From assembly GCA_025361565.1 (NCBI GenBank), contig JANYKN010000032.1, positions 62,001 to 126,000 on the forward strand: a stretch of 64,000 bases of DNA. Reading direction: 5' to 3'. The number at the start of each line of letters is the position of its first letter. Within the stretch, counting starts at the first letter, position 1. A program made the translations under genes and the position numbers. The DNA comes from Bacteroidota bacterium (GTDB lineage: Bacteria; Bacteroidota; Bacteroidia; Bacteroidales; NBLH01). This document shows positions 5,870-60,108 of the stretch, piece after piece. Under the pieces are notes generated by a model. That model was not told the origin of the DNA. It saw only the letters and a program-made list of their open reading frames with translations, and searched no databases.

Positions 5870-7081
5870 ATGGAATCCGAAGAGTTTAAAACAATGCGAG
5901 ACAGAGCCCTTGAGCAGTTGCGAAGCGGGCAATCCTTAACAGGTAAAGATGGTGTTTTCGCACCATTATTGAAACAGTTCATAGAGAGTGCACTAGAAGC
6001 CGAGATGTCCAGCCATCTGGATGATTTTGAGCGGATATCTGGCAACAAGCGCAACGGGAAGAAAAGCAAAACATTGAAGACCGGTTCGGGGGAAATTGAG
6101 ATTGCTACACCGCAAGACCGGAACAGCAGTTTCGAACCACAGCTGGTAAAAAAGCGGGAGACCGTCCTTGCCGACAACCTTGCACCCAAAATCATTGGCT
6201 TATATGGTCTTGGGATGAGTTTCAGGGATATATCCGGCCATATCAAAGAGATGTACGATGTTGAAATATCCCATTCCACGCTGAGTGAAATTACCGACCG
6301 GGTGATTCCCCAGGTGAAGGCCTGGCAATGCCGTGAGCTTGAGTCGCTTTATCCCATTGTATGGCTGGATGCGATGCACTACAAGGTCAGGGACGAAGGC
6401 AGGGTTGTAAGCCGTGCTGTTTATAATGTATTGGCCATCAATAAGGAAGGGCGGAAAGAACTTATCGGGATGTACATTTCGGAAAGCGAAGGTGCCAATT
6501 TCTGGTTGAGCGTTTTAACTGACCTTAAATCCAGGGGTTTACAAGACATCCTGATAGCCTGTATCGATAATTTAAATGGTTTTTCCGAAGCCATAGCCAG
6601 TATCTTTCCCGGTGTTGAAGTTCAATCCTGCATAGTCCACCAGGTGCGCAACTCCTTGAAATATGTTGCTTCCAAGGACCAAAAAACATTTATAAAGGAC
6701 CTCAAAAAAGTATATCAGGCTGTCAATAAAAACCTGGCCGAAGCCGAACTGCTCAACCTTGAAGAGAAATGGGGAAGCAAATATCCTGTGGTAATCAAAT
6801 CATGGAACAGCAATTGGGACAAACTCTCTGCCTACTTCCAGTATGACCAGCAAATCCGTAGGTTGATTTATACGACCAACGCAGTTGAAGGTTTTCACCG
6901 CCAAGTCAGAAAAGTAACCAAAACCAAGGGTGCTTTCCCTAACGATATGGCTTTGCTGAAGCTAATATACCTGGCAACAGAGAATATTTCAAGGAAATGG
7001 ACCCAGCCACTTCAAAACTGGTCACTTACAGTCCAACAATTACATATAAAGTTTGGTGAAAGGATGAAAATAGACCTCTAA
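5870..7081 (+). CDS. IS256-family transposase
   Basis: This 403-residue mutator-type (IS256) transposase catalyses cut-and-paste or copy-out movement of the surrounding element. The DDE catalytic residues are visible: D167 in VWLDAMHYK, D233 in ACIDNLNGF and E340 in NAVEGFHRQ, together with the family C/H signature in VQSCIVHQVRNS. The full family length is present with no frameshift or internal stop, so it may be active. The ATG at 5870 follows a possible internal TAAATTTG promoter at 5847-5854, which would leave a very short leader. Base composition is higher in G+C than the host genes on either side. Confidence 0.97.
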   Translation: MESEEFKTMRDRALEQLRSGQSLTGKDGVFAPLLKQFIESALEAEMSSHLDDFERISGNKRNGKKSKTLKTGSGEIEIATPQDRNSSFEPQLVKKRETVLADNLAPKIIGLYGLGMSFRDISGHIKEMYDVEISHSTLSEITDRVIPQVKAWQCRELESLYPIVWLDAMHYKVRDEGRVVSRAVYNVLAINKEGRKELIGMYISESEGANFWLSVLTDLKSRGLQDILIACIDNLNGFSEAIASIFPGVEVQSCIVHQVRNSLKYVASKDQKTFIKDLKKVYQAVNKNLAEAELLNLEEKWGSKYPVVIKSWNSNWDKLSAYFQYDQQIRRLIYTTNAVEGFHRQVRKVTKTKGAFPNDMALLKLIYLATENISRKWTQPLQNWSLTVQQLHIKFGERMKIDL

Positions 7082-55441: not shown

Positions 55442-56200
55442 TTAAAGAATGTAAGGTATAATTGCTTTTCTTTCATTCGGATAATCCGGAAAATATTGCA
55501 GATACCATTTGTGATGGTCAAGAGCCCGAGGCAATAAATTAACAATTGTCCAAATTGAAAAAGACAATGCAGCCAGATTCCAGGCCATTACTGCAAATCC
55601 AATCCATTCTAAAATCTCTCCAAAATAGTTAGGACATGAGATCCATTTAAAAAGTCCCTTTCGAGGAATTTGATATCCATTTGTTGAACTTTTTCTCAAG
55701 CTTATCAAAATCCGATCTGATGAAATATTGATTATCATCCCGAAAACAAAAAGAATAAATCCAAGAATCAACCGAAATGAATCATTCAATTCAAATATCT
55801 TGTAATCTGGCATTTGACCAATAGCAATTCCATTAAACGATGCATTGACTAGGTTAAATAAAATACCAAAAATGATGATTAAAAGTGGCATTTTCTTTCC
55901 TTTTGTCTTAATTTTGAAAGGAAAAACCAGTGTGCGGTTAATATAATGAATGAACCACATTAAAAACAATACGGTAGCGATTGCATTGTAGTTATGAAAA
56001 AAAATGAAATAATAGCTTAAAATAATTAAAGATGGAATTTCCATAATAACCCAACCTGTTTGGTTCGAAATTGTTGGCCCCCAGCCTTTGCGCATATGTC
56101 GCCCATATGGCTGTTTTACAAATAAAAGTACCGGGAATAACAATAGGGCAAAAATAATCCATACGATGATTAGGTTTTCAAATGTTTTTGGGTCAATCAT
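55442..56200 (-). CDS. Steroid 5-alpha-reductase-like (3-oxo-5-alpha-steroid 4-dehydrogenase) membrane protein
   Basis: This 252-residue polytopic membrane protein matches the C-terminal steroid-5-alpha-reductase fold: GYQIPRKGLFKWISCPNYFGE, EWIGFAVMAWNL and LPRALDHHKWYLQYFPDYPN with the ER/AIIPYIL end. Family members reduce delta-4 double bonds of 3-oxo-steroids, polyprenols or related lipids with NADPH. It overlaps the upstream 3-beta-HSD-like gene by 8 bases, and an exported START-domain gene is just ahead of that. A steroid or other polycyclic lipid substrate is plausible but not shown. Confidence 0.88.
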   Translation of the reverse strand: MIDPKTFENLIIVWIIFALLLFPVLLFVKQPYGRHMRKGWGPTISNQTGWVIMEIPSLIILSYYFIFFHNYNAIATVLFLMWFIHYINRTLVFPFKIKTKGKKMPLLIIIFGILFNLVNASFNGIAIGQMPDYKIFELNDSFRLILGFILFVFGMIINISSDRILISLRKSSTNGYQIPRKGLFKWISCPNYFGEILEWIGFAVMAWNLAALSFSIWTIVNLLPRALDHHKWYLQYFPDYPNERKAIIPYIL

Positions 56201-57200
56201 TTTGGTCTTTTTTAGGATTTTTAATCTTTAGATATCCATTATTTAAAAACCAACTTAGAGAATCTGTAAAAGTTTCCTCGATTGGCCGGGGTTTAAAGTT
56301 CAACTCAGATATTGCTTTTTGATTATTCACCATTTTGGGTGAATGGGCTACAATAGTCAATGATTCTTTGGTATAAAGGGCTTCGGTCCCAGTTATTTTA
56401 CTATAGATATTAATGAATGGAAGCCCCGCCCATGCTAAAAAATTGGGGATTATAGTGGGTTCTTTTCTTTTGACCTGGGTACAAATTAAGCTTGCAATTC
56501 CTACAAGGCTCTTCCATTGATTGGTCAATAAGTATCTTTCACCATTTCTACCAAGTTCCATGGCATTGATTGCTGCATCAACAACATCCCTAACATCTGC
56601 CCAATGGTAGCCACCTTTAATTAAAAAAGGCATTTTGCCTTCAGCAATTTCAATGATCATTTGCCCCATTAATGAAGGAATATAATCGAATGGTCCTATA
56701 ACACCTGATGGATTTAAAATAATTGCATTCAATCCACGTTTACAACCATCAATTACCAACAATTCTGAGTTTGCTTTGGATTGATCGTAATTAAAAGCTT
56801 CTGTTCCAACCAATGGATTATCCTCATTTAGCATTAAATCTGACGATAAATTACGCAATGCATGGATTGAGCTGAAGTGGATTAATCGCTTTATTTTATG
56901 GCTGATACAAGCTTCTATTACATTCCTTGTTCCTTCAATATTTACTTTAAATACGTTTTCTTTTGAATTGCTGCCAATTGAAATAATTGCCGCTGTGTGG
57001 TATACAAAATCAGTACCTTCAACAAGCTTGTTAACCACAATATTATCTAAAATATTTCCTTTAACTTTTTCAACATCAAGGTCCGCAAGTGATTTATCTG
57101 AAGTATGGATGAGCACTTTAACATGATGCCCCCTTTTAATCAATTCCCTGCAAAGATTATTTCCAATATGTCCACTTGCACCTGTTATACCGATTACCAT
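56193..57200 (-). CDS. NAD(P)-dependent epimerase/3-beta-HSD-like dehydrogenase
   Basis: A 335-residue extended short-chain dehydrogenase: the nucleotide motif GITGASGHIGNNL (4-16), S110/S111 in IHFSSIHAL, and the catalytic Y138-x-x-x-K142 in FNYDQSKANSE. It fits the NAD-dependent epimerase/3-beta-hydroxysteroid-dehydrogenase group. Overlap with the 5-alpha-reductase-like gene and proximity to the START gene favour a hydroxy/oxo change on a lipid substrate, although nucleotide-sugar epimerases share the fold. Confidence 0.88.
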   Translation of the reverse strand: MVIGITGASGHIGNNLCRELIKRGHHVKVLIHTSDKSLADLDVEKVKGNILDNIVVNKLVEGTDFVYHTAAIISIGSNSKENVFKVNIEGTRNVIEACISHKIKRLIHFSSIHALRNLSSDLMLNEDNPLVGTEAFNYDQSKANSELLVIDGCKRGLNAIILNPSGVIGPFDYIPSLMGQMIIEIAEGKMPFLIKGGYHWADVRDVVDAAINAMELGRNGERYLLTNQWKSLVGIASLICTQVKRKEPTIIPNFLAWAGLPFINIYSKITGTEALYTKESLTIVAHSPKMVNNQKAISELNFKPRPIEETFTDSLSWFLNNGYLKIKNPKKDQND

Positions 57201-57222
57201 ATTATAAAGTATCTAGAAAAAT

Positions 57223-57912
57223 TTAAAACGTTTTTTCCTGAATGTAAGAAAGTTGGGTATTTTTGTATTTATTCGTTTTTACAACTTTCGACATATTTAA
57301 TATTGTATTAAAAGGGCCTTTGTCAATAGCCATATTCACCAGCCAAACAGGAATATCACCACCTAAATCAATTGATAATTCGAACCTTACATCAACAATT
57401 CCTTCTCTGGCAGGTGTAAATTCCCAAACAGACCTGAGTTTAGGAACCCGAACGAGATCCTCCTTAACCGGAATATAATCAGGCCATCCTTCCGAGTCAA
57501 TCCTTACGATTCCGGAAGTTTTATCTTGTTTCATTTTTGCGTGAGTAATTAAATCCCTGTTACTTACAGGCCATGGAGCTTCAGAAATATTGTAATAAAT
57601 CCATTCAAAATCGTTAATTACTTTAAGGAGTTTGGCACTTTTATTAGCATAAATCCACAAATGATGGTTTTCAGAATCCTTAACCATGCTTACCAAAGGG
57701 CCCAAATTGGTACTCATTTGCATTAATCCCAATACTTCCCTAGTCCGGGACCCTTCAACTGTTCTGATATATATTTTAACACCTTCCTGATTGCGTGTTA
57801 GCTTCCATCCACTTGCATTTTGCGAAAAAACACAAAAGGGAATTATTGTAATCAATATTAGATGTATCAACAACTTCATAATCTTATAACTGTCCAAAAC
57901 ACTAAAGTACAA
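57223..57912 (-). CDS. Exported START-domain protein
   Basis: A 229-residue protein with a signal peptide (about 1-30; the start MKLLIHLILIT would be residue 12) followed by a START-type lipid-binding domain: GWKLTRNQEGVKIYIR, LWIYANKSAKLLKVIND, YYNISEAPWPVSNRDLI and VWEFTPAREGIVDVRFELSIDLGGDIPVWLVN. START domains hold hydrophobic ligands such as sterols or phospholipids. It lies 22 bases upstream of the 3-beta-HSD-like gene in the same direction, so it is probably the first gene of the operon. It may bind or carry the same ligand. Confidence 0.9.
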   Translation of the reverse strand: MYFSVLDSYKIMKLLIHLILITIIPFCVFSQNASGWKLTRNQEGVKIYIRTVEGSRTREVLGLMQMSTNLGPLVSMVKDSENHHLWIYANKSAKLLKVINDFEWIYYNISEAPWPVSNRDLITHAKMKQDKTSGIVRIDSEGWPDYIPVKEDLVRVPKLRSVWEFTPAREGIVDVRFELSIDLGGDIPVWLVNMAIDKGPFNTILNMSKVVKTNKYKNTQLSYIQEKTF

Positions 57913-58191: not shown

Positions 58192-60108
58192 ATGAAAAAA
58201 TTAATATTATTATTAGGAATAATCCTTAACCTTTTCGCCCTGATGGGTCAGGAAAAAAACATATTAGTTGAAGATAACTTTTCCGACAATTCATATAAAT
58301 GGTGGATAGGCCGGAGTCCGATTGGAAAGTGCGAAATAGCTCACGGAGAGTACATTATCAGCTACACAGGGACTAAATCATGGTCATCGAATATTGATGC
58401 TGAATTGAACTCAGTTCAGGATTTCGTTATCGAAAGTAAAATGAGCAGGATAAGCGGTACCGATGAAAATGGGTATGGATTAACCTGGGGAAAAGGCAAC
58501 GATGGGTTTTACAATTTTATAATCACTCCCAAAGGAAAGTTTTATGTAAGAAAAGTAGAACGTGGAAAAAAAGGCCAATATTTAATTGATTGGAAAAAAA
58601 CACCATATATCAATGCCAATGCAATTACCAATAAACTAAAAATCCAAAAATCCGGACAACAACTTCTATTCTTTATTAACGACAATTTGGTAGCAACCAT
58701 TCCTTTTCAACCTTTTTATGGAAATCAATTGGGATTTATGCTTTATCAACGGCAAGAAATAGCCTGTGAATATATGCTGGTTTATGGAAGCGGAAAAAAT
58801 TTAGTTGTAAACAACAGTAAAAACCAACAGGTTGTGGTGGCTGCGCCCGATTTAAGAGTTTTACAGATTGCGATTAAAGACGATCAGGATATTGAAAATC
58901 TGAGTTCGTCATATGGCAACGGAAATTCAATTATTGAGCCTGGAGAATCAATTGAAGTCACTGCATTTGTTCAAAATTATGGAAGCTTGGCAGCAAAAAA
59001 CATTGAAGCAAAAATAGCGCTGGATCTGGACGATAGGAATATTTCATTTCCTGACGAATACAAAACTTTTGATTTAGGCGATATTGAAAGTGGAGATTAC
59101 AAAAAATTGCAGTTCTTCTTCTTTACCAGCCGTAAATATGCTTCAGACGATATTCCTTTCAAAATAATTTTAAAAGAAAAAAGTGGCAGTTACACAAAAG
59201 AACAACCACTTGGTCTAAAAATGAACGAGCGAACCACCAATATTGTAGATGTAAATATCGGGAAAATTGATGTTAAAAAAGATTCGGAAATGAAACAAAT
59301 TCAGGAAGTTATAGAACTTGCAGATGTTGACAAAAATATTCCTGAAACCAAATTTAACGGAGAAAATACGCTTGCCGTTGTCATTGGTATTGAAGAATAT
59401 AAATATGCACCTTTGGTTGATTTTGCAAAAAGAGATGCACAGGTATTTTACAAATATGCTTCATCGGTTTTTGGAATACCAAAAGAAAATATTTATTTTT
59501 TAAGTAATAACGAGGCCACTCTGGGTGAATTTGACAAAATATTTTCGCGTGACGGCTGGCTGTCGCGCAGAACTGTTCAGGATCAAAGCAATATTATTGT
59601 TTATTATGCCGGACATGGTGCTCCTGATGTTAAAACTCAATCCGCATACTTAATTCCTTATGACATTGATCCAAACTATGCAAAAACAGGATTTAGTGTC
59701 AATGAATTATACTCTTCCCTTTCAGCACTTCAGGCAAAATCGGTCACTGTTTTTCTTGATGCCTGCTTTTCCGGAAAAGGTAGAAATGAAAAAATGTTGA
59801 TTTCTGATGCCCGTTCTGTAATCATAAAAACCGAAAATTCAGCATTTTCGGCAAAGAATATGTCAGTAATGGCCGCAGCAAGCAATGATGAATATAGTGC
59901 AGCTTATCCGGAAAAATACCATGGAATCTTCACATACTATTTATTAAAATCATTGCAAAAAAATGCCAACTCATTAAAAACCACAAGTATAAATGATTTT
60001 TTCAACAACATCAAGGTTGATGTTTCTAAAAAAGCCGGATTTCTGGACAAAGAACAAAACCCAACACTTGTTGGAAATGATAAGGACAGGGCAGTAATCA
60101 TGTATTAA
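58192..60108 (+). CDS. Exported caspase-like (peptidase C14) protein with N-terminal LamG-like and CARDB-like domains
   Basis: A 638-residue exported protein with signal peptide at about 1-19. Residues 24-200 look like a concanavalin/LamG-type domain (DUF1080-like; FSDNSYKWWIGRSPIG, DGFYNFIITPKGKFYVRK). Residues 215-345 resemble a CARDB-type beta-sandwich (GNGNSIIEPGESIEVTAFVQNYG). From about 375 to the end is a caspase domain with the dyad H475 in YYAGHGAPD and C525 in VFLDACFSG. It could be a secreted protease or a signalling protein; the substrate is unknown. A TAATTTTG -7 element is at 58146-58153. Confidence 0.88.
   Translation: MKKLILLLGIILNLFALMGQEKNILVEDNFSDNSYKWWIGRSPIGKCEIAHGEYIISYTGTKSWSSNIDAELNSVQDFVIESKMSRISGTDENGYGLTWGKGNDGFYNFIITPKGKFYVRKVERGKKGQYLIDWKKTPYINANAITNKLKIQKSGQQLLFFINDNLVATIPFQPFYGNQLGFMLYQRQEIACEYMLVYGSGKNLVVNNSKNQQVVVAAPDLRVLQIAIKDDQDIENLSSSYGNGNSIIEPGESIEVTAFVQNYGSLAAKNIEAKIALDLDDRNISFPDEYKTFDLGDIESGDYKKLQFFFFTSRKYASDDIPFKIILKEKSGSYTKEQPLGLKMNERTTNIVDVNIGKIDVKKDSEMKQIQEVIELADVDKNIPETKFNGENTLAVVIGIEEYKYAPLVDFAKRDAQVFYKYASSVFGIPKENIYFLSNNEATLGEFDKIFSRDGWLSRRTVQDQSNIIVYYAGHGAPDVKTQSAYLIPYDIDPNYAKTGFSVNELYSSLSALQAKSVTVFLDACFSGKGRNEKMLISDARSVIIKTENSAFSAKNMSVMAAASNDEYSAAYPEKYHGIFTYYLLKSLQKNANSLKTTSINDFFNNIKVDVSKKAGFLDKEQNPTLVGNDKDRAVIMY

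Follow-up and report, generated by a model that had tools for sequence, protein, structure and literature searches.

A Bacteroidota operon of a START protein, an epimerase-type dehydrogenase, and a steroid 5-alpha-reductase homologue that may modify an acquired sterol-like lipid

We describe a three-gene set carried on the minus strand of a 64,000-nucleotide stretch (the window) of contig JANYKN010000032.1 (positions 62,001 to 126,000; assembly GCA_025361565.1) from an uncultured Bacteroidota bacterium, in which open reading frames (ORFs) for a START-domain protein, an epimerase-type short-chain dehydrogenase/reductase (SDR), and a homologue of steroid 5-alpha-reductases (5AR) follow one another. 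The reading that we favor, tentatively and with a confidence a little short of an even chance, is that this operon oxidizes, 5-alpha-saturates, and 3-keto-reduces a sterol-like lipid acquired from outside; the substrate, the direction of the reactions, export, and the order of the steps are what we infer here. The evidence comes from the residues and relatives of the 5AR, from the genes that accompany it in other genomes, and from a survey of Myxococcota genomes.

Families and residues of the three gene products

The genes are closely packed, with an overlap of 8 bases between SDR and 5AR and a gap of 22 bases between START and SDR (Table 1). The three-gene set put forward in a preliminary description of this DNA was confirmed, its families being borne out by Pfam and solved-structure searches, and the reductase signature motif and the YxxxK of the SDR (YDQSK) to which it had pointed were both found in the window proteins. 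For the START gene, the family that it had given stood, but ATG 57879 is a likelier start than TTG 57912 because of the signal-peptide-like start there (MKLLIHLILITIIPFCVFSQ, read by eye) and because the 63%-identical START gene of locus L102 has an in-frame ATG at the same place. The order START-SDR-5AR recurs in L102 at 63, 66, and 69% identity, respectively, and a START gene with 28–29% identity adjoins the SDR-5AR pair in L129 and L147, so the three-gene grouping appears to go beyond chance.

The 5AR contains a Steroid_dh domain that scored 169.1 bits (cut-off, 22.6), and its closest solved relatives were PbSRD5A (7c83; 4e-62) and human SRD5A2 (7bw1; 2.8e-39), with the match to an enoyl-CoA reductase being much weaker (3.3e-16). 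In a 145-row alignment, read against the catalytic and NADPH-binding residues of SRD5A2 as named in PMC7815742, the window 5AR retains E54 and Y86 (E57 and Y91 of SRD5A2) of the catalytic Q-E-Y and eight of the eight NADPH contacts (N158, D162, R169, N191, E195, R225, H229, and Y233), and M53 takes the place of Q56 of SRD5A2, the Q of Q-E-Y. M at this position was found in 89/93 rows of group A, to which the window 5AR belongs, in 19/19 gut-type rows, and in 30/30 rows from the Myxococcota survey (duplicates included). Since PbSRD5A is the best solved relative and the E, Y, and NADPH residues are kept, the steroid-type chemistry that had been suggested for the reductase seems probable as judged from its sequence; PbSRD5A is described as reducing progesterone in PMC7815742. 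In the 5AR tree, which was rooted on human SRD5A2, includes duplicates, and is weak at its deep nodes, the window 5AR fell, listed beside that of L102, within an 85-row clade of group A (support, 0.99), of which the sister (0.99) was the SDR-paired Myxococcota 5AR of G250; three group A rows (L161, L133, and L046) lay just outside the clade. All 19 gut-type rows formed a single separate clade (support, 1.0), and PbSRD5A grouped with two reductases from Myxococcota bearing an oxidosqualene cyclase (OSC).

The SDR has a TGASGHIG nucleotide motif and the residues S110, Y138, and K142, invariant across 18 aligned sequences, and its Pfam matches to both Epimerase and 3Beta_HSD agree with the epimerase/3-beta-hydroxysteroid dehydrogenase (3-beta-HSD) fold previously assigned to it. 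The best NCBIfam models were SdmB, at 210.6 bits against a cut-off of 600, and HpnA, at 205.3 bits against one of 367.65, both of which were also matched by nine of nine aligned relatives. The predicted fold matched many sugar epimerases and reductases with Z of 32–36 and no steroid enzyme among the 50 rows listed, and is not diagnostic of function. The reaction proposed below is plausible because bacterial 3-beta-HSD/isomerases of the PF01073 type are on record (PMC11722256). A sphingolipid role of the SDR was considered and rejected, as the 3-ketosphinganine reductase BT_0972 of Bacteroides, given as 30.99 kDa in PMC9278070, is smaller than the 335-aa SDR, a comparison by size alone.

The START protein scored 36.6 bits against the Pfam START model (cut-off, 22), and its structural model (pLDDT, 92.9) matched the Xanthomonas protein 3qsz best, with Z of 26.5 and a root-mean-square deviation of 1.4 over 179 aligned residues at 32% identity. 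The next matches, with Z of 20–21, were STARD5, STARD4, StarD13, StAR, and CERT, followed at lower levels by a carotenoid-binding protein (Z, 17–18) and the phosphatidylcholine transfer protein (Z, 16.9); sterol-binding and ceramide-binding START domains thus matched the model about equally.

In the mechanism that we propose, the START protein, with a fold evident from sequence and model, would bind a hydrophobic molecule in the periplasm and hand it to or from a membrane. The SDR, for which the family and the active-site residues are evident, would turn the 3-hydroxyl of ring A into a ketone and might at the same time shift the double bond to delta-4, and the membrane 5AR would then use NADPH to convert the conjugated delta-4 double bond to the 5-alpha product, as may be expected from PbSRD5A. 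The SDR may later reduce the ketone back, so that the net result would be the conversion of a delta-5-3-hydroxy or delta-4-3-oxo sterol to a flat 5-alpha-stanol or 5-alpha-steroid. Some relatives might further sulfate this product and pass it along a chain of MMPL, LolA, and START proteins, an extension that the window genome does not share.

Table 1. Position and assignment of the three genes in the window
Gene product	Coordinates	Strand	Length and matches
START-domain protein, predicted exported	57223..57879	(-)	218 aa; Pfam START 4e-9; PDB 3qsz 8.2e-33; model pLDDT 92.9
Epimerase-type SDR	56193..57200	(-)	335 aa; Pfam Epimerase 3.3e-30, 3Beta_HSD 1.4e-24
Steroid 5-alpha-reductase homologue (5AR), integral-membrane type	55442..56200	(-)	252 aa; Pfam Steroid_dh 8.1e-50

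Gene neighborhoods and co-occurrence in related genomes

Among the best 80 loci from at least 579 relatives, an SDR stood beside the 5AR in 57, pairing being defined as an SDR match of at least 60 bits no more than 400 bases away on the same strand; L142 was counted as unpaired although ORF-based inspection showed an SDR neighbor. Genes for START and MMPL proteins were each present in 8/80 loci, for LolA-like proteins in 10/80, and for sulfotransferases in 8/80 (5 at 52% identity or higher and 3 at 28–29%). All of these together with SDR and 5AR were found in L125, L131, L134, L138, and L170. Of these, L131 counts by matching itself, because the queries for MMPL, LolA, sulfotransferase, and the second START were taken from it, and L134 has broken frames in its SDR and sulfotransferase. 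The MMPL protein of these relatives also matches the Pfam sterol-sensing domain.

A survey of the order covered 198 genomes, 39 of which had a 5AR match. Group A comprised 15 genomes (G000, G172, G155, G152, G067, G102, G179, G100, G136, G075, G153, G052, G125, G039, and G131), including the window genome; apart from the window's own, the full-length matches showed 47–53% identity, and G039 and G131 contributed fragments. The gut-type group, inferred from gene layout, comprised 23 genomes with 33–41% identity, and G083, with a 64-residue fragment, was in neither group and was counted among the 183 other genomes. Of the 15 group A loci retrieved, nine showed the SDR-5AR pair, and contig ends truncate several of the rest. 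A sulfotransferase of at least 46% identity was found in 6/15 group A genomes vs 1/183 others (p 4e-7), START in 10/15 vs 28/183 (p 3e-5), and an MMPL orthologue, set at 645 bits or more (24 genomes), in 7/15 vs 17/183 (p 5e-4); all Fisher p values given here and below treat related genomes as independent.

Homologues of the sulfotransferase (38–42% identity) lay directly behind a CysN-like gene in the four of four loci that were read (Cys genes and transporter assigned by eye), and a gut-type 5AR was also present in two of those four genomes, G060 and G106, and in G173. As a separate observation, L219 (1-10074, in G106) has a gut-type 5AR, flavin reductase, and SDR, and roughly 6 kb away a sulfotransferase that has CysN- and CysD-like neighbors, an arrangement in which 5-alpha-reduction may be tied to sulfation. 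Within the window, the divergent neighbor of the operon (58192-60108, plus strand) encodes a protein of 638 aa that contains a caspase domain (Peptidase_C14), and a 403-aa ORF (5870-7081, plus strand) resembles an IS256-type transposase by eye.

Sterol sources and the weighing of alternatives

For the window genome, de novo synthesis of sterols or hopanoids was rejected, and the hopanoid option of the preliminary description finds no support, since two family searches of this genome (98% complete) turned up neither a sterol cyclase nor a hopanoid cyclase of a known type, and a single gene of the squalene synthase/phytoene synthase (SQS/PSY) type, in a carotenoid-like cluster (by eye). A carotenoid-like product, which that description also named, may be possible; the phytoene-synthase-like gene is on a different contig from the operon. 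One distant 599-aa DxDDT cyclase-like protein (51.5 bits) is present, as is such a gene in G198, the closest relative, which carries L102; it was rejected as a substrate supplier, being found in 2/15 group A genomes vs 7/183 others (p 0.14). Its locus in the window genome (L003 3327-9681, contig C36) also encodes a radical SAM protein and a DUF116-polyprenyl-synthase fusion, and the 599-aa DADDT protein, which matches squalene-hopene cyclases weakly and belongs to a cyclase-like kind present in 9/198 genomes of the order, may be a class II terpene cyclase of a kind still unstudied. Among 60 genomes with group A reductases (53 Bacteroidota and 7 non-Bacteroidota), 12 had cyclase matches above the cut-off. 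The six among Bacteroidota were weak (22–93 bits), four of them being proteins of about 600 aa with DxDDT, and none of the 53 Bacteroidota yielded a cyclase of a known sterol or hopanoid type; strong cyclase matches (174–475 bits) were found in 6/7 of the non-Bacteroidota, two of the DxDDT squalene-hopene type and four of the DCTAE oxidosqualene type.

A link between the 5AR family and sterols was found in the Myxococcota, where 53 of 140 surveyed genomes had the 5AR family and 18 had an OSC, defined by at least 35% identity and at least 217 bits. These 18 are drawn from 23 matching genomes, with G263 and G311 partial or split and G258, G302, G349, G361, and G375 classed as other cyclases; the DCTAE motif was read in the four OSCs of G235, G236, G240, and G242. 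A 5AR was present in 15/18 OSC genomes vs 38/122 genomes without OSC (p 3e-5), and the hand count with all 23 cyclase genomes was 17/23 vs 36/117. On contig C127 of G263 (L241 4010-5907), the 5AR gene adjoins the OSC gene, which makes this a candidate locus for the production of 5-alpha-sterols by a bacterium with its own sterol synthesis. Given this link and the sulfotransferase, MMPL, and START neighbors in relatives, the sterol-like substrate class that had been suggested for the operon appears reasonable.

Several observations weigh against an acquired sterol-like substrate. In human SRD5A2, Q56A and Q56L abolish activity according to PMC7815742, and the window 5AR has M53 at this position; the SDR reached no steroid equivalog of NCBIfam at its cut-off. 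To the missing known-type cyclase of the window genome is added that this genome gave no sulfotransferase match at 1e-20 and an MMPL match of 24% at best. Among the 15 Myxococcota genomes with both 5AR and OSC, an SDR lies beside the 5AR in two (G240 and G250), with some contigs ending nearby, and these two are the only ones with OSC among the eight SDR-paired genomes seen in this survey (G240, G250, G244, G251, G325, G339, G359, and G379). Because OSC thus co-occurs mostly with unpaired 5ARs, the sterol link applies to the 5AR family and less to the SDR-5AR pair. In addition, START occurs without the pair in G167, a genome of the same genus, where TerB (69%), orf133 (35%), and START (49%) keep the window order, the pair is absent between orf133 and START, and the SDR encoded upstream of START is another one. 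This arrangement suggests that the SDR-5AR pair is a unit gained or lost beside START and that START is independent of it; neither START nor the pair was found in G062, the other genome of the same genus. Finally, in L103, L106, and L111, the pair follows genes for an acyl carrier protein (ACP), an AcpS-like protein, and an acyltransferase, the last being separated from the SDR gene by 23 bases in L103.

The last observation favors an alternative in which the SDR and 5AR modify the hydroxyl and conjugated enone of an endogenous envelope lipid derived from polyketide or isoprenoid, which START would move, together in some relatives with MMPL and LolA-like proteins; we regard it as a serious rival, though less likely than the favored reading. 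That no known-type cyclase was found in the 53 Bacteroidota fits this alternative, as do the ketosynthases and ammonia-lyase read by eye further upstream of the pair in G199 (L264 and L103), and pairs of MMPL and LolA-like proteins serve other lipids too. However, this polyketide-type neighborhood was seen in only 3/80 loci, the best solved relatives of the 5AR are steroid reductases with the enoyl-CoA reductase far behind, and the sulfotransferase, the most conserved of the additional enzymes, is similar to those in gut-type 3'-phosphoadenosine 5'-phosphosulfate (PAPS) clusters. The genes beside the pair in G199 resemble, mostly as judged by eye, a type II polyketide cluster or an aryl-polyene-like one and include ACPs. 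Near the pair in L103/L106/L111 there are also genes for a sulfotransferase, for a BtrH_N protein, and for a protein whose B12-binding and radical SAM matches stay below threshold. Quite improbable, in our view, is a dolichol-like route, in which the SDR would oxidize a polyprenol to the polyprenal, the 5AR would saturate the alpha bond, and the SDR would reduce the product. In animals, DHRSX and SRD5A3 are reported to perform such a route, and the operon would follow the same oxidize-saturate-reduce logic, in which an SDR and a member of the SRD5A family suffice and no sterol is needed; yet the window 5AR is, among solved structures, close to SRD5A2 and PbSRD5A, and the patchy distribution of the 5AR (group A in 15/198 genomes of the order; 4/296 in a phylum sample at E 1e-58) is ill-suited to a core glycan carrier.

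The modification of bile acids or host steroids in the gut, as the preliminary description suggested, is highly improbable. Gut 5-alpha-reductases and the window 5AR do share a reductase superfamily, but the window 5AR lies outside the gut-type clade, and the gene partners differ as well: a flavin reductase accompanies 15/19 gut-type loci and a classical SDR 12/19, and no window-type SDR, START, MMPL, or sulfotransferase was found within the 19, a related sulfotransferase being present at a greater distance in one of them (G106). The locus lacks the make-up of gut clusters of 5AR, 5-beta-reductase (5BR), and 3-beta-HSD, its neighbors being the epimerase-type SDR and START, and the 80 nearest records are, by title and isolate code, almost all uncultured or environmental isolates.

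Implications and comparison with known systems

Returning to the favored acquisition of a sterol-like lipid, we also considered a wider scheme, which is rather unlikely as a whole, in which environmental Bacteroidota would possess a dedicated uptake of sterols shed by algae or other eukaryotes and convert them by SDR-5AR to 5-alpha-stanols, with sulfation and envelope placement via MMPL/LolA/START in some lineages. If true, this would mean that sterols are used by bacteria that do not synthesize them, and would provide genes for the 5-alpha-stanols of lakes and sediments. With a sterol as substrate, these genes identify bacteria and enzymes that could form 5-alpha-stanols, which serve as environmental markers, in settings other than the gut, and point to the handling of sterols by bacteria lacking sterol synthesis; with any other substrate, the conserved pair is the mark of a Bacteroidota envelope lipid that has carriers of its own. 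In either case, a Bacteroidota 5AR should not always be equated with a gut bile-acid enzyme. Because 5-alpha-reductases of Bacteroidetes, Saprospirales, Chitinophaga, Sandaracinus, and others appear in the review PMC12789469, which cites Han et al. 2023, non-gut 5-alpha-reductases are already on record. A literature search on the genes for 5-alpha-stanol formation gave biomarker or unrelated papers among the matches listed, and one on START, steroid reductase, and Bacteroidetes gave none on such an operon among the matches listed; the pairing of 5AR with SDR and START was thus not seen described there, which does not prove it to be new.

Among known systems, the sterol transport system BstABC of Methylococcus, with BstA of the MMPL family (PMC10942540), is likened by family to some relatives of the window operon, which add a Sulfotransfer_3 enzyme and an MMPL protein with a sterol-sensing match. 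The BT_0411-BT_0416 cluster, in which BT_0416 makes cholesterol sulfate (PMC9417993), has the same layout as the sulfotransferase homologues behind a CysN-like gene, BT_0416 being likened by that layout; close matches to the sulfotransferase and MMPL protein of those relatives were not found in the window genome. SdmB, a dehydrogenase of sterol C-4 demethylation, is the top NCBIfam model for the window SDR over its full length, although the SDR is far under the cut-off, HpnA is nearly tied, and no sterol synthesis was found in the window genome. The START protein differs from 3qsz in its signal-peptide-like N terminus (by eye). The gut-type clusters share with the operon a 5AR of the same superfamily with M-E-Y and a dehydrogenase partner, whereas they form their own clade and have a flavin reductase and a classical SDR instead of the epimerase-type SDR. 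PbSRD5A differs in having its own Q in Q-E-Y where the window 5AR has M, and otherwise aligns with the window 5AR over nearly the full length, with the same E, Y, and eight NADPH residues.

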